This document shows positions 13,231-19,127 of a DNA stretch of 21,952 nt, piece after piece. Below the pieces are notes generated by a model. That model saw only the letters and a program-made list of their open reading frames with translations, was not told the DNA's origin and ran no database searches. Source of the stretch: a virus; the IMG/VR virus record IMGVR_UViG_3300043427_001807, positions 1 to 21,952 of that record; one strand, 5' to 3'. How positions within the stretch are numbered: the first letter of the stretch is position 1; each line of letters opens with the position of its first letter. A program made the position numbers and the translations under genes.

Positions 13231-13254
13231 AAAAAACCCCTGGTTTCCCAGGGG
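13231..13254 (-). terminator. Intrinsic terminator after the helix-hairpin-helix gene
   Basis: On the minus strand CCCCTGG (13254-13248) and CCAGGGG (13243-13237) form a perfect 7-bp GC-rich stem with a 4-base loop, followed directly by six T (13236-13231) and more T-rich sequence. It lies 18 bases past the stop at 13273. It should end or attenuate transcripts carrying the packaging and head genes before the peptidase gene. It is the only textbook terminator I found. Confidence 0.85.
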
Positions 13255-13272
13255 TCGATGAGGAGAGAGTTG

Positions 13273-13683
13273 TCAGACGCGAATGAGGTTTGCCGCGAAC
13301 ACGGAATCCCAATCCACCCGCTTAATTTGTTTTAACTGTTCGAGATTGTTAAACCTTTCACCCGATAACGACATCTGAAGATCTTTAATCTCTCGGGCCG
13401 TTTTCAAGCCGATACCCTTAATATGATCTGCGATCATTTGAGCGGTAGCGCCATTGATATTTAAGCGTGTGTCGGGCGGGAAGGAACGCGGCTCCTCTTG
13501 CGCAGCCTTGTCTTTTACTTGAAGCGTTTTTACTTTCTTTGTTGCTTCTTCATCCGGCTCCAGCTCAGATTGATAAGCGGTGAAAAGGCGACCGTCCTGG
13601 TCTTCGACCATGTACCAATCGCCATTATCAAATTCGCTTACAACTTTGACGCGTGCAGCCGTCTTTTTGTGCTTATAGAGCAT
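13273..13683 (-). CDS. Helix-hairpin-helix protein with N-terminal SH3-like segment
   Basis: 136 residues in two parts. Residues 8-44 are a beta-rich SH3- or Tudor-like segment (RVKVVSEFDNGDWYMVEDQD and the turn after it). Residues 50-70 are a charged linker. Residues 73-136 are a ComEA-like helix-hairpin-helix domain: LNINGATAQMIADHIKGIG then KTAREIKDL, with the GIG hairpin at 90-92, and a second half ending FNNLEQLKQIKRV. This domain binds DNA backbone without sequence preference. In a head operon it might bind the packaged genome or help close the packaging step; that is inference. The ATG at 13683 has no Shine-Dalgarno and sits one base from a strong hairpin. An intrinsic terminator follows. 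Confidence 0.85.
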   Translation of the reverse strand: MLYKHKKTAARVKVVSEFDNGDWYMVEDQDGRLFTAYQSELEPDEEATKKVKTLQVKDKAAQEEPRSFPPDTRLNINGATAQMIADHIKGIGLKTAREIKDLQMSLSGERFNNLEQLKQIKRVDWDSVFAANLIRV

Positions 13684-13684
13684 A

Positions 13685-13707
13685 AGGACCAGATGTATTC
13701 TGGTCCT
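13685..13707 (-). promoter_or_regulatory. RNA hairpin abutting the start codon of the helix-hairpin-helix gene
   Basis: On the minus strand AGGACCAG and CTGGTCCT form a perfect 8-bp stem around a 7-base loop (AATACAT). The stem ends one base before the ATG at 13683 and starts 12 bases after the stop of the abundant head protein gene. There is no U-run, so it is not a good terminator. It could block ribosome entry, cap the 3' end of the head transcript against nucleases, or be a processing site. Confidence 0.6.
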
Positions 13708-13719
13708 AGTTTACCCTAA

Positions 13720-14511
13720 TCAGCTAACAGTGCGACCCAGCAGATAACCATCAATATCTTCGTAGCCAGGAGCTTCATCCGGCTGGAGGTAGCACACTTC
13801 AACCACGAAGTAACCCGTGCGATTAGCAGATGCGTCACCGCTGGAGATGTACCAACCACCAGATGTGGAGGTAGCAGTCTGCGATTCACGGGCCTGCACG
13901 TAGTACGTAGCAGCACCAGTGATCTGCTTGTAGACGAGGTTCGGCAGCACACCTGTAGCGCCAGTGGCGGTCAGGAAGGGCTGGGAGCTGTAACCAGCGG
14001 TACCACCAGCGAAGAAGATCTCGCCGGACTGAGTGCCAGAGGTGGTGGAGACCAGGTTGGCCTGGGCCACAGCTTCACCCACGGTGCCGGTCGAGGTCAG
14101 GCCGGTGGCGAAGGTGATCACGTTGCCAGAAGCAGCGTAGATACCGGAAGCAACACGACCATCACCCCAGCCAGAAGCAACGGAGATGGTGGCGCGATAC
14201 ACATAAGCAGGCAGGTCGGCGCTACCGGAAATCACCATGCCGGTAATGTCGGGGCGGGTGTCGTCCTGGCGGTATGGCGAAGGAACGATCACCTTGCCGG
14301 AAGCAATGGCGCCAGCGCCAGAGGTGGTGGTGACAGGCACGTAACCACGCTGCTGGAAGTAGCGGTAGCCAGGGATAGCCAGCACCGAAGTGGGGCCACC
14401 CTTAGAACCATCATTGGTGCCGTTGTCGTTGGTATCAATGTTCTTGTACCAGCCGTTCAGCGGCTCGGCCCAGTTGCCTGGGAAGATTTTTTTAGCGGAC
14501 AAATAGGTCAT
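13720..14511 (-). CDS. Abundant head protein, probable capsid decoration/auxiliary protein
   Basis: A 263-residue, beta-rich, Gly/Thr/Ser/Ala-rich protein directly behind the major capsid gene. It opens with MTYLSAKKIFPGNWAEPLNG and an Asn/Asp/Gly-rich loop (NIDTNDNGTNDGSKGG, 24-39, possibly metal-binding). Its body has repeats of the type SG-x-VI-x-FATGLTSTGTV and it ends YEDIDGYLLGRTVS. No catalytic motif is visible. Codons are strongly C/G-ending for Asn, Asp, Tyr, Phe, Lys and Gly, as in the capsid gene and unlike the accessory genes, which suggests very high expression. A decoration, cement or capsid-fibre protein is the best inference. AAAGGG lies a few bases before the ATG as a weak Shine-Dalgarno. 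Confidence 0.78.
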   Translation of the reverse strand: MTYLSAKKIFPGNWAEPLNGWYKNIDTNDNGTNDGSKGGPTSVLAIPGYRYFQQRGYVPVTTTSGAGAIASGKVIVPSPYRQDDTRPDITGMVISGSADLPAYVYRATISVASGWGDGRVASGIYAASGNVITFATGLTSTGTVGEAVAQANLVSTTSGTQSGEIFFAGGTAGYSSQPFLTATGATGVLPNLVYKQITGAATYYVQARESQTATSTSGGWYISSGDASANRTGYFVVEVCYLQPDEAPGYEDIDGYLLGRTVS

Positions 14512-14548: not shown

Positions 14549-15712
14549 TCAGACGGTACCGTCATCCTGCACAAAGCTGTAGCTGGTCGTAACAAAATCC
14601 TTGTTCAGGATCTCGAAACCGGCGTACAGTTGCCAAATAAGAATAATAAAACGGCTGAAATCGTCGTTATTGTTGATAAGAACCTGAGCGTTCGGGCCGC
14701 CGATACCAACACCAACCGACTGAGGACCGAAGAAGAAGCCTTGGGCAACTTCCTTGGAAGCGTAGGTAGAACCGCCGTCGAACGAAGCAGTAACGTTCTT
14801 GGTCGGGAAGTTGGTGGACTCGAAGAACTTAACGCCTTCAAACTGCACGCCAGTAGGCATCACAGGCTCGCCGCCCAGGAAGTAGGCTTGGCCAGCCTGA
14901 GGACCCATGTAGAAGCTGGCGTTGTTCGGCATCATGGGGTTACCCATGTACATGCCTTGGCCAGGATTACCAGCGTAACGAGCGATCTCGCGGAAGTCTG
15001 GGTCACGACGCAGGTGCATCATGAAGGTAGGATCGCAAATGCAGCGATACAGACCATCAGCGAATGTAGGAACGTTGCGCTTACGCAGGTCCTTAACAAC
15101 GGTCAGCAGGTCAGTACGCACCTGGAACTGCTGCACTTCGGCAGTGTACTCAGCGGTTTCGTACTTAATGCGACCGGAGGAATCTTTGGTCTTACCACCA
15201 GCGAAGTAGTAACCACCCTGGCTGGTAGAAGCAGCACCATTGGCTTCAGCTTTAGCTAATTCGTCAATAAAGACCCGGTCGCGCCAGCGCCGGTAGTCGT
15301 CCAGCAGCGTCAGGCTACCGATCGACTGGTGGAACATATTTAAGTTGCCGGAGTCCAAGAGCAGGCGCTGAGCCGTGATCAGGGTCTCTCGGGCAATCTT
15401 AAAGGTGCTAGGCTGAGTCGGATCACCCGGATCAGCAGGGCCGGTGTACTCTTTGAGCACCACCAACACCTTTTCCTTTGTGATGTTACGGCTGTTGGCA
15501 GTACCAATGGTCTGGTCAGCAATACGCTCCCGGCTGTCCTTGGTGCCAGGGGTACCCCAGAACTTATAGCGGTCTAACTGAACTGTTTGGCCGGGCTGGC
15601 GTGTGAAGTCGTGAACAACCACGGGCTCCACAGCCATCTCGGCAATGTAAGCAGGGTGGGGCCGATATAATTCAGCACCCAGAATCTTTGGAAAATCGTT
15701 ATCAATGAACAC
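14549..15712 (-). CDS. Major capsid protein (HK97-fold, N4-gp56-like)
   Basis: 387 residues. Position (after terminase, portal and scaffold), length, acidic, high-quality codon use and sequence style all fit a major capsid protein. An early segment around residues 33-70 (VVHDFTRQPGQTVQLDRYKF and on, then ADQTIGTANSRNITKEKV) resembles the N-terminal part of N4-gp56-type HK97-fold capsid proteins: an extended arm, then a strand pair leading to the E-loop and spine. A Met/Asn/Gly-rich loop (MYMGNPMMPNNASFYMG, about 255-271) is distinctive. No prohead protease gene is nearby, so maturation may occur without cleavage. The GTG start at 15712 is supported by GGAGG ten bases upstream. The 106-base gap upstream (15713-15818) is AT-rich and may hold a promoter, but I found no convincing -35/-10 pair. 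Confidence 0.87.
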   Translation of the reverse strand: MFIDNDFPKILGAELYRPHPAYIAEMAVEPVVVHDFTRQPGQTVQLDRYKFWGTPGTKDSRERIADQTIGTANSRNITKEKVLVVLKEYTGPADPGDPTQPSTFKIARETLITAQRLLLDSGNLNMFHQSIGSLTLLDDYRRWRDRVFIDELAKAEANGAASTSQGGYYFAGGKTKDSSGRIKYETAEYTAEVQQFQVRTDLLTVVKDLRKRNVPTFADGLYRCICDPTFMMHLRRDPDFREIARYAGNPGQGMYMGNPMMPNNASFYMGPQAGQAYFLGGEPVMPTGVQFEGVKFFESTNFPTKNVTASFDGGSTYASKEVAQGFFFGPQSVGVGIGGPNAQVLINNNDDFSRFIILIWQLYAGFEILNKDFVTTSYSFVQDDGTV

Positions 15713-15818: not shown

Positions 15819-16388
15819 TTACACGTACTGCATTGTCGACGTCTTGTATCGAGCGCCAACAGAATTACTGGAACCGTAAGCTTCGGGATCAACTGCGGCA
15901 TCTTGAACAAAACCTGGGACGCCAACAGCGCCAGGGATTGCGCCAAGAGCAACGCCACCAAGACCTGCAAGTCCAGCGGCGGCTGGTGCAGCAAGTCCAG
16001 CAGCTACATTGCGAACAGCGCGTTGACCGCCAGGCGTAATAGAAGCACCTTCTGCAGCTGCAATAATATCCGCAGCCTTGCCGATTGCCTTGCTGCGCAG
16101 GTTTGATTCGCCATGGAGCTGACGACCCACATTGCCAACAATATTGCCGAGAGGGATTACAGCTTTCTCTTGTGCTTTCTCAATCAACATCGGTGCGTAA
16201 CGTCCGGCAAGACGACCGGCACCTAAGCCACCACGAGCACCTAAAGCAGCAGCTGCACCGCCAAGTAATGCACTGCCGGGATCTTCACCTTGAGCGGCAA
16301 GAGCCCCGCCAACTGCCAAGCCGGCAGCAGCGGGGACTCCATATGCAAGCAAGGGACGTGTTTGTCCTAGTGGTCGCATCTGCCTCAC
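15819..16388 (-). CDS. Gly/Ala-rich hydrophobic head-region protein
   Basis: 189 residues. The GTG start at 16388 overlaps the preceding stop by 4 bases (GTGA); an in-frame ATG three codons later is the alternative. Three Gly/Ala-rich hydrophobic stretches are visible at about 13-33, 38-62 and 127-160 (for example GLAAPAAAGLAGLGGVALGA), separated by charged helical segments. The tail ends YKTSTMQYV. It lies between the scaffold-like gene and the capsid gene. This could be a membrane-active internal virion (ejection) protein or an assembly factor. A holin is less likely because the segments are so Gly/Ala-rich and the place is inside the head cluster. No family recognised. Confidence 0.72.
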   Translation of the reverse strand: MRQMRPLGQTRPLLAYGVPAAAGLAVGGALAAQGEDPGSALLGGAAAALGARGGLGAGRLAGRYAPMLIEKAQEKAVIPLGNIVGNVGRQLHGESNLRSKAIGKAADIIAAAEGASITPGGQRAVRNVAAGLAAPAAAGLAGLGGVALGAIPGAVGVPGFVQDAAVDPEAYGSSNSVGARYKTSTMQYV

Positions 16389-17380
16389 TCCATCACAAGA
16401 AGTTTGTTAGCAACAACTTGAGGCTGAGCTTGGTTCAGAACGCGCCATGCATTCTGGGGATCGCGATTCATCATCTCGCTAAAGCTGCCCCAGAAGTTTT
16501 CGGGCTGCTGAGGAGCAGCTGCAGAAGGAGGAGCAGGGAATTGACCCATGAAGTCGTTAACTTCTTCAGTGGGGTAGCCAGGACGCTCCAGTTCACCTTC
16601 CGATTCGTACACAGGATACGGACCTTCGGGGCCGAAGAACTTCAGCGTGTAATCGCTGAGGACGTCAGGATTGGTCAGGATTTCGTTGTAAGCCAGATTC
16701 TCCTGATGCTCGCCAACAGCAAAGCCGGCATAACCCTGGATCAGATCTTTGGCTTGGGAGCCCCAGGCAACAGCGCTGTCCAGCATGCCTTCCAGTTGGA
16801 GAGCATAGTTGTTCAGAACTGCAGGAGCATTCCAGCCGTAAGCATCAACGACGTGACGGCTTTCCTCGTTTAGCTGCAGGTAATCCGCGATCGCGTTGTT
16901 TACTTCCGGTGTCGGCTGAAGACCGTCCAGCGCCGAGTAAAGACTCGAGGAGATTTGGGAAGAGTTGGGCGAGAAGGCCCGGTTGGCTGACGAGATCTGC
17001 GTCGCCGATTGTTGCGTAGCTGGGTTGCTGTTGGGCAGGCCGTAATTGGCCGGGCTGTACTGAGTCGGAATCGCTGATGGTTGACCCTGGAACGGGGATT
17101 GCACTGGTGCGCTCAGCAGATTCACCACCTTGTTGAACGCCGATTCCCACGGATTGCCCGTCTCCGGTTGGGATTGGGGGGCGTACTGAGTAGGGGCGGA
17201 TTGGTAGCTGGGGCTCGCCTGAGGTACCGCTTGGGGGTAGCTGGTACCCACCTGGTACTGCACTGGAGCTGCCTGGTAGCTGTTGGCTGCCGGAGCTGCC
17301 GGAACCACGTAGCTGCTGGGCGCCACCGCTGCTGGCGACGGGCTCGTCTGTGGGATCGATTGGACGGTAGCGTCCTGCAT
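16385..17380 (-). CDS. Scaffold-like protein whose gene starts inside the portal gene
   Basis: 331 residues. Residues 1-130 are low-complexity and Pro/Gln/Ser/Tyr/Ala-rich with repeated SY-Q/P units. Residues 150-331 are helical and acidic (PEVNNAIADYLQLNEESRHV, LALQLEGML-type helices), ending in a short positively charged helix (NRDPQNAWRVLNQAQ). An acidic helical protein encoded between portal and major capsid is the classic place and style for a scaffolding protein that shapes the procapsid. The start at 17380 is firm: AAGGAG lies 7 bases upstream. The first 536 bases are also read, in another frame, as the last 178 codons of the portal gene. It overlaps the next gene by 4 bases. Confidence 0.82.
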   Translation of the reverse strand: MQDATVQSIPQTSPSPAAVAPSSYVVPAAPAANSYQAAPVQYQVGTSYPQAVPQASPSYQSAPTQYAPQSQPETGNPWESAFNKVVNLLSAPVQSPFQGQPSAIPTQYSPANYGLPNSNPATQQSATQISSANRAFSPNSSQISSSLYSALDGLQPTPEVNNAIADYLQLNEESRHVVDAYGWNAPAVLNNYALQLEGMLDSAVAWGSQAKDLIQGYAGFAVGEHQENLAYNEILTNPDVLSDYTLKFFGPEGPYPVYESEGELERPGYPTEEVNDFMGQFPAPPSAAAPQQPENFWGSFSEMMNRDPQNAWRVLNQAQPQVVANKLLVME

Positions 17381-19127
17381 AACTCATCTCCTTTTGTAGA
17401 GCTTCTAAAGTTCGATACAGATATGGCGTTAAATCCAATCTTGGATCCGCAGCCATCGGAAGGTCCGGTGCCTGCGGGTGGGGAGTCTGCATCATTCCCC
17501 CCACAAGGCGAGCAAATTGAGAGTATGCACTCTGTAATTCGTTCACCATCCTGAACGGAAACCCAGATAACATCTCGGCCCGTTCCTCATCCGTCTTGGA
17601 CGGGAAGAGGTATTTCAGTGCTTCAATGCTATCAACACCTAATTCCTGTAAATTTCGGACAACAATAGAGTTGTTCAGGATGTCTTGCGTTGAATCCTCA
17701 TAAACAGGACCAAGCCAACGCCAAATGACAGTAACATCACCATCAGGAATTAAGCCCATAACACCTGGTGGAATTTGCTGGGACTCCACACAGGCCATCA
17801 TTAATTTCTTCAGCTGTTCGTTATAAAGTTTTAAAGCTTCATCATAAGCAGCTTGCTCTTCTTGTGGCGCACCCTGAGGGAGGTCTACGGGCTTTTCAAT
17901 TCCAGCGGCAGATGCAAGCGTCGCCTTGAACAGCTGCTCTTCTTGATAAATAATCAGTTCAAGACACCGGCAAATGCCATGGGTGTAAATTGCATTTGCT
18001 TTTTTCTTGGATGTTGCCGCAACGCGGCCAAACAGAGATTTGTACTCCGTTGCGGTCACACCTGCGGAGATGGAAAGTTCATCAACACCACCAAGCGCTG
18101 TACGAATTTCTTCTCGGAATTGACGTGCAAATGCGTTTTGATCGCCCGTAATAGCGTCAGGGACAATGTAACCGACACGGTCATTTGGCTCCAGGTTTGC
18201 AATCACACGTGGCACACGAATCTGACCATCAACGCCACGACTGACGGGATCTGCTTTGAAGCGAGACTGGCTTAAAGGATTGGCACTAGCAAAGCCAGAG
18301 TTTGCTGCAATCGATGGACGCTGTACCACAGCATCACCACCTGCTTCCATCAGATCGGTTTTTGGCCTGGAGGAAAGCAGTGTGGGATTACCAAAGAACT
18401 GAACATTCTTCCGCATAGTGCGGATCAGTTCATCATGAATGCAAATCTGATTGGCAAAGGCATCAAATTCACCGACGCCTTCAGTAGAAAAACCTTTGGG
18501 GTTATTGAAGATCTCGACACAGGGAATAAATCCCAAAGAGTTCTTAAGTTTCTTGGTTTCACCCGTCAGGGTGTAAGAAGGCATATCAAAAGACAGCTCT
18601 GCATCAGAATGAGTTTCCTCAATTTCCTTTGCTTTGATTGACAGCCGGATGTAACGCTTGTGGCCTGGTGATCCAGTGGTTTGATTTCCAGTAAGATCTG
18701 CTGTATTCAGTTGGTCACCAAAACCAAAGCCACGCTTTACCTTATAGCTGTAGATGATCACAACTTGGTCAAGCTCGCCGTCAACGTTGTAGAACGTACG
18801 GTATTCGTGATTGCGGAAGTAGTAGAGCCTGTAGCTTTGCTTGGTGGGACGAATGTAAAAAAGACCTTTACCATCACACAGGAAATACTCCCAGATGGAA
18901 TCCAGGCGTGTATCCATCTTGTTGTACTTCAATACGCGATCAAGGAAATCCTTGCGCTGTGCACCGAAGTTGTCCTGTGATGGAAAAAACTCAACTCCTT
19001 GGCGAATGCCAAAGAGTTTCATCTGAGCAATGTGAGACGCAACAATTCCAGTGTCAACAACGGTACCGCTGTCTTTATCAAGGTATGCATCAACAATTTC
19101 CTTGAGCCTGGATTTAGCGTCTGCCAT
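16845..19127 (-). CDS. Portal protein with long disordered C-terminal extension
   Basis: 760 residues. The first 585 or so have the make-up of a phage portal protein: an alpha/beta wing (for example EYFLCDGKGLFYIRPTKQSY), a stretch on bound features (LGFIPCVEIFNNPKGFSTEG), a helical stem and crown (ALKYLFPSKTDEERAEMLSG), ending at MSYAGRYRPIDPTDEP. Portals form the dodecameric ring through which DNA enters and leaves the head and on which terminase docks. From about residue 585 to the stop the chain becomes disordered (GS/QLP-rich, then Pro/Ser-rich, with a basic end AKRGKPSRR). This part lies wholly over the start of the scaffold-like gene in a different frame. Location two to four genes after terminase supports the call. 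ATG at 19127, no clear Shine-Dalgarno. Confidence 0.88.
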   Translation of the reverse strand: MADAKSRLKEIVDAYLDKDSGTVVDTGIVASHIAQMKLFGIRQGVEFFPSQDNFGAQRKDFLDRVLKYNKMDTRLDSIWEYFLCDGKGLFYIRPTKQSYRLYYFRNHEYRTFYNVDGELDQVVIIYSYKVKRGFGFGDQLNTADLTGNQTTGSPGHKRYIRLSIKAKEIEETHSDAELSFDMPSYTLTGETKKLKNSLGFIPCVEIFNNPKGFSTEGVGEFDAFANQICIHDELIRTMRKNVQFFGNPTLLSSRPKTDLMEAGGDAVVQRPSIAANSGFASANPLSQSRFKADPVSRGVDGQIRVPRVIANLEPNDRVGYIVPDAITGDQNAFARQFREEIRTALGGVDELSISAGVTATEYKSLFGRVAATSKKKANAIYTHGICRCLELIIYQEEQLFKATLASAAGIEKPVDLPQGAPQEEQAAYDEALKLYNEQLKKLMMACVESQQIPPGVMGLIPDGDVTVIWRWLGPVYEDSTQDILNNSIVVRNLQELGVDSIEALKYLFPSKTDEERAEMLSGFPFRMVNELQSAYSQFARLVGGMMQTPHPQAPDLPMAADPRLDLTPYLYRTLEALQKEMSYAGRYRPIDPTDEPVASSGGAQQLRGSGSSGSQQLPGSSSAVPGGYQLPPSGTSGEPQLPIRPYSVRPPIPTGDGQSVGIGVQQGGESAERTSAIPVPGSTISDSDSVQPGQLRPAQQQPSYATIGDADLVSQPGLLAQLFPNLLESLLGAGRSSADTGSKQRDRGLPAAKRGKPSRR
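17388..17393 (-). promoter_or_regulatory. Shine-Dalgarno AAGGAG of the scaffold-like gene, inside the portal gene
   Basis: AAGGAG on the minus strand, 7 bases before the ATG at 17380. It is the strongest such site in the window and proves that translation is meant to restart here although the portal frame is still open. Confidence 0.8.

Follow-up and report, generated by a model that had tools for sequence, protein, structure and literature searches.

Does a single stretch of DNA in a tailed phage encode, in two frames of the same strand, both the end of a portal protein and the beginning of the head protein that follows it? Long out-of-frame overlaps are typical of tiny viral genomes; in tailed double-stranded DNA phages, most gene overlaps span a few bases. 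The window that raises the question—the whole stretch of viral DNA analysed here, 21,952 nt long—carries a 760-aa portal ORF on its minus strand (16845–19127, assigned by profile and fold searches) and next to it, on the same strand and in the +1 frame, a 331-aa ORF for a probable scaffolding protein (16385–17380, minus), residues 1–178 of which are encoded inside the portal gene. The initial annotation had singled out the 536 nt that these frames share (16845–17380, minus), and the shared stretch is real, its coordinates exact. It is the sole head-to-tail, same-strand overlap of more than 60 nt in the window among ORFs of at least 100 aa. Across 12,609 virus reference genomes, +1 overlaps have a median length of 14 nt and an interquartile range of 8–26 nt (PMC8903798).

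How readily might so long a frame stay open by accident? When synonymous codons were permuted in five sequences, the +1 frame stayed open in 0.05–0.8% of trials; when codons were sampled from core codon usage, it did so in 20% of trials for the window and 0.3–9% for the other four sequences. In one sequence by itself, then, the open second frame is mildly improbable. What marks the overlap as genuine, rather than a product of chance, is its conservation across relatives.

Judged by its sequence, the window falls within the lineage of the Synechococcus cyanophage S-EIV1, its closest isolate (portal identity 75%); in the phage collection S-EIV1 alone matches the portal core, the scaffold or the capsid protein convincingly. 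Related loci came from five scans, four over viral contigs (each with its own query portal, of which the closest set was taken) and a fifth over genome contigs. All 300 loci that reach past the second start keep the overlap, its frame and its start, and these loci, in which both genes are present, represent about 170 distinct portal DNAs, with pairwise amino-acid identities in the portal core as low as 75%. The 18 nt at the second start, AAAAGGAGATGAGTTATG, are identical in every one of the 300. In complete copies the overlap runs from 518 to 641 nt, and within it the scaffold frame is free of stops in all 146 unique sequences. Nine other portal-bearing loci lack the second ORF; in each, the contig ends before its start or at most about 150 nt past it. 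A TAC codon for the tyrosine of the portal motif would abolish the ATG; a search for that version among 2.9 million viral contigs gave no match. A short overlap of 185 nt (loci L216 and L250) has its stop 9 nt before the contig end and was treated as an artefact, and a locus from a Methanoregula bin (L085) was discarded because its match, in a P-type ATPase gene read in the wrong frame, is spurious. No homologous portal has its stop near residue 590, an outcome that would have told against the initial annotation, and a sequencing error behind the open portal frame—the other worry—is ruled out by hundreds of independent contigs, and by the isolate S-EIV1, that share the overlap.

What are the two proteins? 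The upstream ORF matches the phrog_64 portal profile (E = 6.8e-5), as do 38 of 44 relatives (best E 5e-6), and it matches phrog_20475, ‘virion structural protein’, at E = 1e-283. Its structural model is poor (mean pLDDT 43, TM 0.1–0.2); the top ~30 PDB fold matches to that model are phage portals or portal–tail complexes (best E 1.4e-6), the portals of T7, P-SCSP1u, A-1(L) and 80alpha among them. S-EIV1 rows were left out of the structure models.

The second protein is harder to name. Its gene lies two genes before that of the major capsid protein, in the order portal (16845–19127), second gene (16385–17380), a 189-aa gene (15819–16388) and major head protein (14549–15712; a match to phrog_1357 at E 2e-16). 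Its N-terminal half is predicted to be disordered and is rich in Pro, Gln, Ala and Ser, residues 77–90 forming the sole helix predicted in the first 140 residues; beyond lie a predicted 52-residue helix (185–236) and C-terminal helices (296–330), in a low-confidence model with a pLDDT of 57 overall. Because it sits between the portal and major capsid genes, and because of this predicted architecture, we consider the protein quite likely to be the scaffold. That it might be a real head protein of another sort, say a minor capsid protein or one internal to the virion, we regard as distinctly less probable though worth keeping in mind: the 189-aa gene separates it from the major capsid gene, and no scaffold family in PHROGs or Pfam was matched—nor, outside S-EIV1, did searches of PHROGs, Pfam, PDB sequences or phage records give any match—but the order of portal, second gene, small gene and major capsid protein is one that fits a scaffold, and a disordered N-terminus followed by a long helix and C-terminal helices is what is expected of such proteins. 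A viral structure library yielded one good match, a protein of 133 aa with 81% identity.

Some features of the neighboring genes deserve mention in their own right. The 189-aa gene (15819–16388, minus) encodes a Gly/Ala-rich protein without a family match, and over its codons 65–128 nonsynonymous change proceeds at about 0.9–1.3 of neutral, so that this part is nearly unconstrained. Synonymous rates in the major capsid gene (14549–15712, minus) are moderately lowered throughout, to about 0.2–1.1, consistent with the codon bias of a highly expressed gene. In S-EIV1 the major capsid gene occupies 13242–14468 of locus L082 (60784–62010 of KJ410740.1), with a GTG start and 383 aa, and its product is 86% identical to that of 14549–15712 in the window; in its place the S-EIV1 record wrongly gives AHV82227.1, an antisense ORF, together with AHV82228.1, which is a C-terminal fragment of it.

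If both frames code, both should show it in the way they change. We placed substitutions by parsimony on a tree built from the portal core only (145 sequences, 226 short branches), took the neutral expectation from four-fold sites of the portal core, and sorted changes into four classes with an implementation of our own, the four-class idea being that of programs such as OLGenie. This test supports dual coding of the overlap. Changes silent in both frames accumulate at 1.09 of neutral, those silent in the portal frame that alter the scaffold at 0.24, those that alter the portal and are silent in the scaffold frame at 0.45, and those that alter both proteins at 0.18; changes that create scaffold stops occur at 0.03–0.04. 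The same imaginary frame shift applied to the portal core, as a control, gives 1.07, 1.10, 0.09 and 0.09 for these classes in the same order, and second-frame constraint is absent there. For the scaffold frame w is 0.22 (95% 0.16–0.35) and for the portal tail 0.41 (0.29–0.65), with a bootstrap fraction at or above one of 0.001; constraint on the portal frame is the less certain of the two, doubly silent sites being few (113 changes). Purifying selection acts on both frames, and the second frame is not drifting freely, as the initial annotation had allowed that it might be.

The constraint is zoned, the scaffold prevailing over the first two thirds of the overlap and the portal over the motif at its residues 703–732. 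Scaffold residues 75–104 (NPWESAFNKVVNLLSAPVQSPFQ..., 17069–17158, minus) are the tightest stretch of that protein, with portal-silent, scaffold-replacing changes at 0.02–0.12 of neutral. Portal residues 703–732 (YATIGDADLVSQPGLLAQLFPNLL..., 16932–17021, minus) form the tightest motif of the tail outside the start region, with portal-replacing, scaffold-silent changes at 0.18–0.34 and doubly silent ones at 1.5–1.8; there the scaffold frame is looser (0.45–0.56). Constraint on the portal is clearest at residues 628–732 and weak at 598–627 and 733–760. Over residues 598–627 it is not visible, portal-replacing changes occurring at 0.54–0.82 of neutral versus just 0.14–0.34 for doubly silent ones.

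These weak zones bear on the possibility that the second ORF alone codes in the overlap, the portal having its functional end near residue 597 and staying open beyond it by accident. Past residue 597 the portal tail is Gly/Ser/Pro-rich and of low complexity, as such a reading would have it, and is predicted to be without structure except for short helices at 710–731, themselves of low confidence. But portal-replacing changes that are silent in the scaffold fall below doubly silent ones, most clearly at 628–732, and the tail carries a conserved YATIG..LLAQLFPN motif, is open in relatives for the whole of those 518–641 nt, and ends basic every time: its last 30 aa (16848–16937, minus) have a net charge of +5 to +9 in 145 of 145 sequences. 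An accidental portal tail we therefore hold to be improbable, and the disordered tail with a basic C-terminus that was suspected from the outset is borne out. On the supposition, made there too, that the tail is the newer of the two readings, the signs are contradictory. The portal frame fits the codon usage of the portal core better, and the scaffold frame that of the scaffold C-terminus, in 100% of sequences each, so that as pointers to the older frame the two comparisons contradict each other; and every scan saturates on close relatives, with no overlap-free outgroup or distant relative able to polarise the overlap among them.

A Shine–Dalgarno sequence, AAGGAG (17388–17393, minus), lies within portal codons 578–580, 7 nt before the scaffold ATG, and the portal codons around it, CAA AAG GAG (ATG) AGT TAT, are the same in all 145 sequences; the internal start that the initial annotation called unambiguous is just that, and invariant in relatives. 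At other invariant Q, K, E, S or Y residues of the portal core, the most frequent codon has an average share of 0.59–0.76. Of 274 residues in the upstream core that are invariant and have degenerate codons, only 8 keep to a single codon, as against five of five around the Shine–Dalgarno sequence and start. The second frame evidently has a conserved initiation site of its own. Two codons before the ATG stands an in-frame TGA (17384–17386, minus), part of a TGA GTT ATG string inside the invariant 18-mer, and because it closes the frame the scaffold frame has no entry from further upstream. Just past the ATG, at scaffold nucleotides +6 to +19 (17362–17375, minus), a nearly invariant hairpin, GGACG-CUAC-CGUCC, is predicted in most sequences checked.

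Programmed +1 frameshifting out of the portal gene, yielding a portal–scaffold fusion in the style of lambda G/GT, offers another way into the second frame. The shared strand, the +1 relation and the conserved junction nucleotides are all such as it would call for, but the invariant TGA bars entry upstream of the ATG, though a frameshift downstream of the ATG lies beyond its reach, and the frame has its own Shine–Dalgarno sequence and ATG at an invariant 7-nt spacing. Unlike fusions of the lambda G/GT type, it has an independent start preceded by an in-frame stop, and we think frameshifting very unlikely.

In the S-EIV1 record (KJ410740.1) the portal appears as a ‘hypothetical’ protein of 767 aa, AHV82224.1, and the second gene is represented by just a 133-aa C-terminal piece, AHV82225.1, also ‘hypothetical’, that starts right after the portal stop. 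In none of 131 sequences does an SD-like tetramer precede the internal Met of this annotated fragment. The S-EIV1 DNA itself contains the second ORF in full, with the same Shine–Dalgarno sequence and ATG and an overlap of 554 nt, and the scaffolds of S-EIV1 and the window are about 70% identical; the annotation of the type phage missed over half of the second gene. That the record is nonetheless right, the portal alone coding in the overlap, the true downstream gene beginning past the portal stop and the long ORF reflecting GC-rich, stop-poor DNA, we can hardly credit, because, apart from its agreement with that record and the 20% of sampling trials in which the window’s frame stayed open, it runs against the scarcity of portal-silent, scaffold-changing substitutions (0.24 versus 1.10 in the control), the invariance of a Shine–Dalgarno sequence and ATG that the annotated Met cannot match, and the absence of scaffold-frame stops from all 146 sequences. 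As we read the aligned loci, the dual coding, with its internal initiation, is very probably genuine and long maintained.

One further conserved feature, unexpected and passed over in the initial annotation, lies outside the overlap. Directly upstream of the scaffold start, over portal codons 496–582 (17382–17642, minus), synonymous change is suppressed: observed/expected values, mostly 0.7–1.7 further upstream, fall sharply at codon 496 and range from 0.02 to 0.50 (about 0.3 for the block of some 260 nt). The 5′ edge of this candidate cis-element (TTAGGTGTTGATAGCATTGAAGCACTG, 17616–17642, minus) is near-invariant, with a rate of 0.02 at codons 497–504; codons 496–504 are present in single copy in the window and in S-EIV1. 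Because synonymous rates are higher in the rest of the scaffold gene (about 0.5–1.5 in its non-overlapping part) and in the terminase gene (about 1–2), the suppression is a local feature, and because none of five alternative frames tried accounts for it as another ORF, an embedded cis-element seems likely. Over codons 540–579, folding is more stable than in synonymous shuffles (mean z −2.3, eight sequences), but covariation in the block is weak (3 of 68 pairs), and an RNA structure here is a candidate at most. No Rfam family matched the block. A repeated phage promoter was considered and rejected, the block being single-copy in S-EIV1 and without a sigma-70 match above chance. Our leading guess is that the block acts in cis, as RNA or DNA, on expression of the scaffold; a packaging site and a late promoter are the alternatives.

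How might such an arrangement operate? Translation begun at the portal’s own ATG would carry on through codon 760, adding to the portal core a tail of about 165–180 residues that comprises a disordered linker, the conserved 30-residue motif and the basic end. Further ribosomes would load at the embedded Shine–Dalgarno sequence and read the +1 frame into the scaffold’s disordered N-terminal half, its helical C-terminal half being encoded past the portal stop. One message with two starts is the simplest account. Termination–reinitiation is unlikely to drive scaffold synthesis, since from the scaffold start it is >500 nt downstream to the portal stop. The initial annotation had proposed that the tail could bind scaffold or DNA and so tie the synthesis of portal and scaffold together. 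Interaction between portal and scaffold in procapsid assembly is well established for phages such as P22 and HK97 (PMC12005531, PMC10275583). It is possible, and we suggest it tentatively, that the tail—probably the 703–732 motif and the basic end—aids recruitment of scaffold or coat at procapsid nucleation, internal initiation letting a single message yield scaffold in large excess over the 12-copy portal. More speculative still, and on balance doubtful, is that portal and scaffold make up one assembly module in which portal tail and scaffold N-terminus are co-evolved partners, and in which the ~260-nt block is the RNA or DNA element that sets the ratio of 12-copy portal to many-copy scaffold on one message.

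Parallels exist, each of them partial. In lambda Rz/Rz1 and other embedded two-component spanins, lysis genes all, Rz1 lies inside Rz. Papers on such genes include PMC6139136 and PMC5295617. Like Rz/Rz1, the present locus belongs to a tailed double-stranded DNA phage and encodes two proteins of one process out of frame over a long stretch of the same strand; unlike it, the genes are head genes rather than lysis genes, and a C-terminal extension runs over the N-terminal half of the next gene instead of one gene being embedded in another. The lambda protease gene C contains the in-frame internal start of the scaffold Nu3. Here too a scaffold is predicted to arise by internal initiation within an upstream head gene, but in lambda the frame is the same and residues are shared, whereas here the frames differ, no residues are shared and the upstream gene is that of the portal. 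In small viruses such as phiX174, overlapping genes were born by overprinting. Genes of that origin are the subject of a review, PMC8227390. The present overlap resembles the phiX174 type in that both frames are under purifying selection and the products are disordered and of low complexity; it differs in lying within a genome of about 80 kb, with no obvious pressure toward compaction, and in joining two core head genes. Overlapping genes are a known kind. As far as our searches reach, the literature, the original S-EIV1 paper apart, contains no description of a conserved portal–scaffold overlap this long in a tailed phage.

With the full second ORF the type phage’s annotation can be put right, and the conserved block that adjoins this ORF opens the regulation of portal:scaffold stoichiometry to direct tests. 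The overlap itself offers a natural system in which to see how one DNA stretch splits constraint between two proteins. An overlap of 518–641 nt, fixed in a widespread lineage of ~80-kb cyanophages, indicates that dual coding can persist for reasons besides compaction.
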